A stretch of 55,061 nucleotides of DNA, taken from positions 1-55,061 of the forward strand of contig JAJZZA010000017.1 in the NCBI GenBank assembly GCA_021797825.1, read 5' to 3'. The stretch is from Bacillota bacterium. GTDB taxonomy: Bacteria; Bacillota; Sulfobacillia; Sulfobacillales; Sulfobacillaceae. Of the stretch, positions 12,814 to 15,550 are shown in pieces. The notes under the pieces were generated by a model. That model was not told where the DNA came from. It made no database searches and saw only the letters and a program-made list of their open reading frames with translations. A program made the position numbers and the translations under genes. Within the stretch, counting starts at the first letter, position 1. Each line of letters starts with the position of its first letter.

Positions 12814-13434
12814 TCACGTCCTGCCCGCGATTGACCCCCATGCTCCCTCCCCGTTCGATACCCCCCGGATCGCCAGGGTGGCATACATTTCAGCAATCTG
12901 CTCCGCGGAATAGCGCCCGGTCTGGCGGTACCAGCCGATCACACCGGTCGCCATCGACAACAACGCATAGCTGGCGATGTTGACGTCCGCTACCCTAAAG
13001 ACTCCGGACGCCTTCCCCTCATGCAGAATGTTCTTAAACATCTGCTCATACTCATCTCTAAGGGATTTTATGGTGGTACGACTTTCATCGGACAAAGCCC
13101 GCATCTCCGTGTCGACGATCGTGGCCTCCTCAGGAAACTCGCAGTGAAAACACACATGAAACCGCACGGCCTCGTACAACTGCTCTCTAGGACCATCCAT
13201 TGCCGACAACCGTCTTTCCAGTCCCCGGATGAGCCTCAGCAAGACAGATGACATGATGTTCGCCAACAACGCCTCTTTGGATGGGAAGTAATAGTATAAC
13301 GTCGGCATTTGGATGCTGACCTGGGCTGCAATCGTGCGCATGGAGGTGGCGTGGAAACCCGCCGAGTAAAATAGACGGGCGGCTACCGCATAGATTTCTT
13401 CACGCCGGATTTCGGAGGAAGTCTGCAACACCAT
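12814..13434 (-). CDS. TetR/AcrR-family transcriptional regulator
   Basis: A 206-residue regulator with a typical TetR N-terminal HTH (about residues 7-55: EEIYAVAARLFYSAGFHATS, then MPTLYYYFPSKEALLANI) and a helical ligand-binding domain. Two in-frame ATGs exist; 13434 lies seven bases after AAAGG and is preferred over 13440. It lies upstream of and in line with the permease/PaaK/amidohydrolase operon. The TetR class commonly represses acyl-CoA or aromatic-acid degradation genes and responds to CoA esters, which would fit this operon. A putative operator lies just upstream of its own start. Confidence 0.85.
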   Translation of the reverse strand: MVLQTSSEIRREEIYAVAARLFYSAGFHATSMRTIAAQVSIQMPTLYYYFPSKEALLANIMSSVLLRLIRGLERRLSAMDGPREQLYEAVRFHVCFHCEFPEEATIVDTEMRALSDESRTTIKSLRDEYEQMFKNILHEGKASGVFRVADVNIASYALLSMATGVIGWYRQTGRYSAEQIAEMYATLAIRGVSNGEGAWGSIAGRT

Positions 13435-13446
13435 CACCATGCCTTT

Positions 13447-13456: not shown

Positions 13457-13681
13457 GTAGGATTTTGTACAGTGGGGCATATTCGCTGTTACTAGTGCAA
13501 ATTCCTTCTTTTCAGACTCGTCCGACAGAAAAACTTTTCGATCTGAGCCGGTGTGCGGTGCGAGGCTTGCTAACAAGTCCGCGCCATGCTGCACCGCCAG
13601 ATGAGGCGGACCCCTCCAAACCGCTCTGAGGGGAGCTTTCAAACGATCGTCAGCGACTGAGGATAAAAGGCTTGGTCATAA
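13457..13681. other. Non-coding stretch before the intron-like element
   Basis: Nothing recognisable; short frames only. Confidence 0.4.
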
Positions 13682-14082
13682 GCGCGACGGAAAAGGCGGA
13701 ACCGACTCCGTCAGGTGACTGGGGGAGTTGAACGCAAGGGAACCGTTGCCGGCGTCGAAAGCGTAGGGACGTCATCAAAACCGGGGGATAGCATTTTGTC
13801 ACAGTTCAGCCAATCTTTCACTGGACGGACCCCAAAATCCGGGTGCCCCTCGAGCGTCATGGTGTTGTGATGTTGGCGTTCTTAGTCTATCGGGAATCCC
13901 GATAGCTGAACGAGGGAGGTGAAGATCTCCGATAATCAGCGAAATACGGCACACCAGGCCGACCACTGGTTTGGCTGTGAGCCATACTGAAATGGACAGC
14001 CGGATGCGCTAAGAAGTGCCAATCCGGTTTCGAGAGGAGAGACGGGGAAACCGCGCCAGTGACGCCCTGTCTCTTCCTCTAC
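13682..14082 (+). ncRNA. Probable group II intron remnant without ORF
   Basis: Bases 13996-14031 read as a domain V: AGCCGGATGCG, an AAGA-type loop, then a bulge and ATCCGGTTTC, with the AGC catalytic triad at the start of the 5' arm. A domain-VI-like imperfect hairpin follows (arms GGAGAGACGGG and CCCTGTCTCTTCC) and ends in CTCTAC, a common bacterial group II intron 3' end. Upstream, GAGTTGAACGCAAGGGAAC and GTCGAAAGCGTAGGG resemble domain I segments. A perfect hairpin lies at 13887-13905. The 5' end (GCGCGACGG at 13682) is a guess. No reverse transcriptase remains, so it would need help to move or splice. Confidence 0.45.
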
Positions 14083-14788
14083 GGTTCAGCGGTGGCCGGC
14101 ATGAAGACGGCAGCCCCGCACGCAGGCTCCGGCGTGGAACGTGGCACCCTCGACTATGATGGCAAAACTGGTGGTAGTGAGAAAGCCTCGAAATTATAAT
14201 CTCCTGGAGCATTTAAGGCGAAGACTTGGATGGGTCATGATTGCGGCCAGCGCCGCCGAAGCCGGGGGCCACCACCCATGTCGCCAAAAAAGAGAGCACA
14301 CAACACACACAAGCCCAAAACCGATTCTTCGTGGGGCTAGACCTTGCGGAGGGCGGAATTGTGCCAGTTCGCAACGGTCGGCTTATCGCGCCGCACCGAA
14401 CGGTGAGTGACGGGGATTGTTATTGGAAGCAATCTATGGCAACGTGGTTTTGAAGAAAACCCGCCACTTATGACGGAACGGGTAAACGTCGTCCACGGAA
14501 ATCCCGGGATGGTCGGATGATTTCGCCAAAAGGAGTGATGGGTGTTCTTAGTTATTGGGTTTACCGGCCCAATGCATGCTTTTCACCCTGTAGATCTGGG
14601 GGGTGTCATTCTTCGGCACACAATTTCGTGGTTGACAATCGTGCCTATGCTTTTGTATCCGCACGGCCTATGAGTACAATGGCCAAAAGCTGTTGCCAGA
14701 AGCGATAATCGTTGCATTATGACGCGAACATGTTTTGTAAACGTTAATCGCGGGTATTATTAATGGTGTGAGGGGTGACACTACCATA
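14083..14788. other. No supported gene downstream of the intron-like element
   Basis: About 700 bases up to the DeoR-type gene. Small frames such as 14241-14453 plus lack ribosome binding sites. The DeoR promoter should be near 14700-14770 (TTGTAA and TATTAT occur but with poor spacing). Confidence 0.4.
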
Positions 14789-15550
14789 ATGAACAAAGGT
14801 CTTACGACCAGACGGCAGAAAATTTTAGATATGGCGATACAGCATGACTCGGTGCGTGTAGATGATTTGGCACAGATTTTCAATGTCTCCACAGAAACGA
14901 TTCGGCGGGATCTGGACCGCATGGCTGCCGAGGGGCTGTTGGTGCGGACGCATGGAGGAGCCATCCTGCAGTTTGAATCGGAAGCACAACGATCTTACGC
15001 TCAACGAGAGGTTCTTCGATCTGATGCTAAGCAACGGATGGCGGTCGCGGCTATAACCAAACTTCCGACAGCGGGTTCAGTTTTGATTGATGCCGGAACG
15101 ACCACCACGGCCATCGCGGAACGCATGCCCAACAATCCTCATCTCAACATCGTGACCAACGCTTTGACCGTTGTCTATGCGCTCGCCAAGAACCGGTCAC
15201 AGGCTCAACTGCTGGGGGGCACTGTCCGGTGGGAGAGTTTTGCGGCCGTTGGACCCCGAACCATTATGCAACTTCATGATATGACTTTTGATGTCGCATT
15301 TATTGGTTGTAATAGCATGGATGTGCATGGTTTCTACACAGCTATAGAAGAAGAGGCTCTTAGCAAGGCAGCGATGGCCAGACAATCGCGCACTGTCATC
15401 CTGGTTGCTGACGGGGCAAAATTTCGCACTCCCGACTTTGCGCGGATCGGCAGCTGGGATATGATTCATAGCCTGATTACGGATGGACCGGTTCCCCTGA
15501 ATATTTTATCCACGTTGCATGCCAAGTCGGTTGAATTGGTGCTCGTATAA
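14789..15550 (+). CDS. DeoR/GlpR-family transcriptional regulator
   Basis: A 253-residue DeoR-family repressor. The N-terminal winged HTH (TTRRQKILDMAI, VRVDDLAQIFNVSTETIRRD, HGGA) is followed by a ribose-isomerase-like sensor domain with DAGTTTTAIAERM and NALTVVYAL. ATG 14789 is chosen, with GAGGGGTGA ten bases upstream; a GTG at 14768 is less well placed. Such proteins usually sense a sugar phosphate and control sugar uptake and kinase genes. The PfkB-type kinase (convergent) and the MFS transporter lie next door, so control of those is the natural hypothesis. Confidence 0.85.
   Translation: MNKGLTTRRQKILDMAIQHDSVRVDDLAQIFNVSTETIRRDLDRMAAEGLLVRTHGGAILQFESEAQRSYAQREVLRSDAKQRMAVAAITKLPTAGSVLIDAGTTTTAIAERMPNNPHLNIVTNALTVVYALAKNRSQAQLLGGTVRWESFAAVGPRTIMQLHDMTFDVAFIGCNSMDVHGFYTAIEEEALSKAAMARQSRTVILVADGAKFRTPDFARIGSWDMIHSLITDGPVPLNILSTLHAKSVELVLV

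Follow-up and report, generated by a model that had tools for sequence, protein, structure and literature searches.

Probable nested remnant of two group II introns behind an apparent ORF-less intron in a Sulfobacillaceae genome

In a Bacillota bacterium of the family Sulfobacillaceae (assembly GCA_021797825.1), the gap separating a TetR-family and a DeoR-family regulator gene contains DNA that resembles a group II intron without an open reading frame (ORF), and we asked what this resemblance represents. An earlier note, made from the letters alone, had placed a probable ORF-less group II intron remnant at 13682–14082 and suggested that, if complete, it could be mobilised by a maturase produced at another place. 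The motifs on which it relied are present: at 13995–14082 on the plus strand, a domain V (DV) hairpin showing the AGC triad and the AGCCGGATGCG arm is followed by a DVI-like hairpin and the CTCTAC terminus, and a domain-I segment upstream on the same strand (13603–13716) matches the Rfam model RF01999 with 46.4 bits. The element is a remnant as described, but its pieces belong to two introns, here called A and B, and not to a single ORF-less one. Our comparisons indicate that the locus is very probably a decayed nest of two group II introns, B inside A, with a scrap of an IS1634-family transposase gene.

The window, meaning all 55,061 nt analysed, constitutes the entire contig C117 (JAJZZA010000017.1) of a 3.59-Mb assembly in 156 contigs (genome G000). 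Its relevant features are as follows.

12814–13440, minus strand: TetR-family gene (Pfam TetR_C_24, 118.8 bits; TetR_N, 57 bits)
13551–13791, plus strand: 5′ part of intron A, the putative outer intron, with the 5′ end GTGTGC at 13551; domain I
13603–13716, plus strand: domain-I segment of intron A (RF01999, E = 2.6e-6 over the whole window)
13795–13901, plus strand: 107-nt piece from the C-terminal coding part of an IS1634-family transposase gene
13903–13945, plus strand: maturase-start stretch of intron B, the putative inner intron, in domain IV; 43 nt, at and just upstream of the start codon
13946–13990, plus strand: fused first and last maturase codons of intron B, with TGA at 13988–13990
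13995–14082, plus strand: DV and DVI of intron B (Rfam RF00029, 27.4 bits), with the 3′ end CTCTAC at 14077–14082
14083–14165, plus strand: continuation of intron A (82% over 84 nt to L026/L049)
14174–14194, plus strand: perhaps the final identifiable trace of intron A (90% over 21 nt to L049, at no better than E = 0.069)
14768–15550, plus strand: DeoR-family gene (Pfam DeoRC, 137.6 bits; HTH_DeoR, 64.6 bits)

Pieces of two intron lineages and a transposase gene

A 541-base query was compared with 61 genomes, namely the bacterium's own and 60 relatives (up to ten candidate places scored per genome), and found matches in 21 of the 61. These fell into separate blocks with differing sets of relatives. 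Block 1 (13563–13791) is 85% identical over 237 nt to genome G007, 81% to G030 and 78% over 243 nt to an intron on a Sulfobacillus acidophilus plasmid, and the best homology of intron A, to L026/L049, reaches E = 2e-69. Alignment with seven relatives places the 5′ end of A at 13551. The same type of intron resumes in block 2 (14083–14165), which is also 68–78% identical to loci L032, L050, L036, L038 and L055. Blocks 1 and 2 are 39 nt apart in L049, compared with 291 nt in the window; when 13796–14076 is omitted, the window is collinear with six of the seven aligned relatives, and the seventh, the second copy in G007, ends at a contig end short of block 2. The interval in the earlier note starts inside A's domain I and omits both the 5′ end at 13551 and the continuation at 14083–14165.

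DV and DVI of intron A were absent from 14083–14800 in Rfam searches at E values up to 10 and from the whole window in blastn searches with two A relatives, whose DV matched B's DV alone there (E = 0.11). Domain I of A scores 46.4 bits, above the RF01999 gathering score of 36 bits, compared with 109.9–118.7 bits for five matches in four loci of A relatives. This low score is no proof of decay, because the three other RF01999 matches in the same genome (contigs C99, C11 and C34) score alike, at 38.8–49.2 bits. These three are group II introns of similar type, with no blastn similarity to A at E = 1.

The 3′ portion of the apparent intron has other relatives. Block 3 (13903–13945) is 81–86% identical over 43–44 nt to L045, L046 and L058, and 87% over 30 nt to L048, with E values down to 4e-8, and in all four loci the homologous stretch runs into the ATG of an ORF. 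Block 4, from about 13967–13986 to 14082–14088, is 75–79% identical over 107–124 nt to introns in six genomes or sequence records (G016, G022, G003, G025, G038 and Paraburkholderia; E = 4e-15 to 5e-20, the best being L037/L046), and L042/L054, L043 and L053 match 55–69 nt of it. Both blocks occur in G016, G022, the G003 chromosome and a Paraburkholderia plasmid; block 3 alone was found in G039, and block 4 alone in G025, G038, G034, G018 and G009. Where both are found, a maturase ORF, annotated in the Paraburkholderia record, begins at block 3, and the blocks are separated by 1.49–1.50 kb (L046, L058) or about 2.9 kb (L045, L048). In the window, about 1.5 kb of this gene is deleted, with the junction at about 13966, known to within a few bases.

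Introns of the B type in G016, G022 and Paraburkholderia start with GTACGCCC and end with CTCTAC or CTCCAC, after which an open frame resumes in phase; we therefore place the 3′ end of B at 14082. Their 5′ half, from the 5′ end to block 3, is 607–638 nt long, and blastn searches of the 55-kb window with four B relatives did not find it (E = 0.019 for the best match elsewhere). Separately, the B-type intron in L048 (G003 chromosome, reverse complement, upstream of about 2190) appears to be without most of its 5′ half, as judged against the 5′ half common to the other three relatives.

A functional DV has an AGC triad, a 2-nt bulge and a GNRA tetraloop, and the branch point is a bulged A in DVI, 7–8 nt from the 3′ end. 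Of these features, the window retains the AGC triad and the bulge position; its tetraloop GAGA has become AAGA, with loss of the first G of the GNRA motif, both basal bases of the DV stem (G and C) are changed, and C stands at 14076, where six of six relatives have the branch-point A. In total, 7 of the 66 DV/DVI positions that are invariant in six B relatives are altered. Each relative itself carries 0–6 changes where the other five are invariant, with six in G025, and the nature of the changes therefore weighs more than how many there are. The RF00029 match was found at a relaxed threshold (E = 0.0042 in a 1-kb search) and scores 27.4 bits, compared with 60.6–63 bits in four B relatives. It thus formally falls short of the covariance threshold by which the earlier note proposed to judge DV and DVI (gathering score, 40 bits), but homology still marks the stretch as intron sequence.

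The place expected for B's 5′ half is occupied by something else. Positions 13795–13901 (block 5), with a left edge known to within a few bases, are 81% identical over 112 aligned columns to an ORF of 586–599 amino acids on contig C38 of the same genome. Its product matches the NCBIfam model NF033559 (transpos_IS1634) with 282.6 bits and gave nothing in Pfam at E = 0.001. Shorter parts of block 5 match G057 and G018.

Further along the gap, searches of 14166–14770 against the 60 relatives yielded nothing beyond a short repeat at 14314–14400. This 87-nt stretch is 81–82% identical to a sequence with six copies in G031, of which five lie no more than 170 bases from a contig start; it occurs whole or in part in G012, G001 and G033, and is probably a scrap of another mobile element. 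The sole ORF of at least 100 amino acids at a neighbouring locus, L070 (148 amino acids), looks like a sigma factor and fails to explain the repeat.

Nested origin and competing explanations

Homology to A starts again at 14083, immediately past the 3′ end of B, which argues that B inserted into A. Sequence of A thus lies on both sides of B, with an exact right boundary at 14082/14083; because the left boundary was lost with B's 5′ half, the precision of the insertion is evident on one side only. Sequence comparison shows what each piece is, that A resumes, which parts are missing and which bases of DV and DVI have changed; we infer the order of events, the mode of insertion and the absence of activity, as follows. 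Intron A would have inserted first. B, of a different lineage, would then have entered A, probably by reverse splicing, leaving its exact 3′ end at 14082. A later rearrangement involving an IS1634-family element may have put the 107-nt fragment in the place of the 5′ half of B together with about 39 nt of A. The 3′ half of A, with its DV and DVI, would have been lost at some point as well. The loss of about 1.5 kb of B's maturase gene could have preceded or followed the insertion into A.

A single complete or nearly complete ORF-less intron at 13551–14082, spliced and mobilised in trans like Thermosynechococcus TeI3 by a maturase from elsewhere in the genome, would account for domains that stand in the correct order on one strand, with domain I above threshold, and for the retention of both maturase ORF ends around a deletion of about 1.5 kb, an arrangement that PMC2882425 describes for TeI3. 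The host genome also holds at least 15 other DV matches. We nevertheless regard this reading as very improbable. Domain I and DV belong to different lineages: the relatives of domain I resume after DV and DVI, past the supposed 3′ end, and the 5′ half of the DV/DVI relatives is absent from the window. Movement by a maturase from elsewhere, as the earlier note envisaged, is contradicted by what is left, namely B without its 5′ half and A with no DV/DVI found, separated by an IS1634 fragment; mobility in trans is further countered by the mutated tetraloop and the lost branch-point A. The arrangement is unmatched elsewhere in the genome and in the 60 relatives, at up to ten scored places per genome. 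A chimeric ribozyme, with A's domain I working with B's DV, is conceivable as far as sequence can tell.

The idea of a true intact copy at another place in the genome was not borne out: a 701-base query returned only the locus itself and the IS1634 gene from the 3.59-Mb assembly. The absence of any other close copy of A or B argues against misassembly of intact copies. This genome gives 15 RF00029 matches at E ≤ 0.001, ten of which exceed the cut-off (scored: 150 of 255 candidates; the 15 do not include the window's own DV), and four RF01999 matches including the window's (150 of 301 candidates scored). Reverse transcriptase (RT) matches were all partial (three to RVT_1 on two contigs, two with an internal stop), and two of five GIIM matches contain an internal stop. 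For 11 of the 15 DV matches, a contig end is no more than about 130 bases away (C19, C24 at both ends, C149, C136, C134, C116, C141, C146, C71 and C88), so an intact intron could hide in the assembly gaps, and the assembly appears to be broken by intron repeats. The partial RT matches count against a single intron served in trans, although these contig ends fall in intron copies.

For intron B alone, we consider it unlikely, though less so than the preceding reading, that it arrived in A as an already ORF-less intron, mobilised in trans, and that only its 5′ half disappeared afterwards. The remnants of N-terminal and C-terminal codons abut at about 13966, and such an origin is possible because TeI3 has the same ORF-remnant layout; against it, the two blocks are at least 1.5 kb apart in L045, L046, L048 and L058, and a later deletion is equally simple. 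Finally, the DV/DVI score below the Rfam gathering score would be expected if the resemblance to an intron arose by chance, an explanation that is hardly tenable in view of independent homologies reaching E = 2e-69 for A, 5e-20 for the 3′ end of B and 4e-8 for block 3.

Under the nested origin, the resemblance of the fused pieces to one compact ORF-less intron is a coincidence. As wreckage of two introns with a transposase scrap, the locus is most likely dead and ordinary, and neither intron would be expected to splice or move. Two broken introns can thus mimic one compact ORF-less intron, and checking by covariance score alone would err both ways.

Insertion sites of the relatives

The relatives of A suggest where its lineage inserts. 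We considered 11 distinct A-type introns with placed 5′ ends, excluding truncated copies (L029, L031 and L041) and counting duplicate loci once. The active-site codons YADD or FADD of an RT frame directly precede five of them, and YADG precedes one more. The remaining five, like the window copy, have no such codons ahead, and two of these five, in L036 and L056, look to lie in another gene family. A search of 154 genomes of the class for ADD codons followed by one base and the A-type 5′ end gave eight matches in seven genomes, and the reversed pattern gave none in the 154. A decayed YADD site ahead of A itself is not apparent: the ADD pattern is unmatched in the window's own genome, and A's 5′ flank is, by eye, without ADD. 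The bare 15-base A-type 5′ end was found in 75 of the 154 genomes, mostly not following ADD; these matches are probably often due to chance, because a reversed control matches too.

In seven of the eight pattern matches, L104 being the exception, the upstream frame reads as a group II RT up to (Y/F)ADD, and five of these seven places are the same as among the 11 placed 5′ ends. The sites are in L047 (1700–4170, on CP003180.1), L102, L103, L105, L106 and L108; the intron in L108 diverges from the others soon past the first 15 bases. On the S. acidophilus plasmid, the upstream ORF covers RVT_1 positions 1–143 of 205 (90.1 bits) and reaches YADD at the intron. The inner intron carries a complete RT (RVT_1 positions 1–205, 136.9 bits; GIIM, 62.2 bits) and its own DV, and past it come a separate GIIM-only ORF (59.2 bits) and a further DV. 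G007 holds one A-type intron in an FADD site and another in a YADD site 1.2 kb further on.

B relatives follow the codons LW(Q/L)(T/S)D(I/F)(T/K)Y in L045 (reverse complement; 2372 and 6077), L046 (1077 and 3332) and L058 (1824 and 4112). The flanks before the introns of G016, G022 and Paraburkholderia read LWQTDITY, LWQSDIKY and LWLSDFTY, and the open frame continues in phase beyond the intron. Directly past it, Pfam finds the rve integrase core of a transposase, scoring 54.3 bits and starting at profile position 16 in G016, and 67.5 bits and position 19 in Paraburkholderia; the flank in G022 gave nothing at the Pfam cut-off.

We tentatively propose that A may be a dead member of a lineage in this class that homes preferentially into the YADD codons of group II RT genes, those of its own kin included, and so exploits, as a never-ending target, the site at which intron maturases are most conserved, which would make it a parasite of other introns. 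B's lineage might likewise home to codons around the first catalytic Asp of rve-type transposases. If the YADD-site preference holds, it would show mobile introns feeding on one another at their catalytic motif. No description of insertion at YADD codons was found in the literature searched, mostly papers available without subscription, within the accessible parts of sources including PMC2882425, PMC4424553, PMC4476101, PMC8919778 and PMC4649490.

Comparison with known nested introns

A decayed nested-intron remnant is an already known kind of thing. Nested group II introns are described for Thermosynechococcus (TeI4::TeI3), Methanosarcina acetivorans and Trichodesmium, and bacterial twintrons are often intergenic, according to PMC2882425, PMC4424553 and PMC4649490. 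Like those twintrons, the locus appears to place a group II intron within a group II intron; unlike them, its B lacks the 5′ half, its A lacks DV and DVI, and a transposase fragment stands in for part of what they lost.

The S. acidophilus DSM 10332 plasmid CP003180.1 (included in G003) carries the intron, at about 64723–66549, that aligns with A's 5′ part at 78% over 243 nt. In contrast to A, it has the complete RT/maturase ORF described above and a DV of 54.3 bits, and it sits within the RT gene of another intron, directly past the YADD codons. The counterpart of B is an intron on the Paraburkholderia sprentiae plasmid pl2WSM5005 (ltrA, WP_027193726.1), which is 77% identical over 113 nt to B's DV/DVI end and 84% over 44 nt to its ORF start. 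Unlike B, it retains a 5′ half starting with GTACGCCC, a 505-amino-acid maturase (RVT_1, 124 bits), the branch-point A and an RF00029 score of 62.1 bits.
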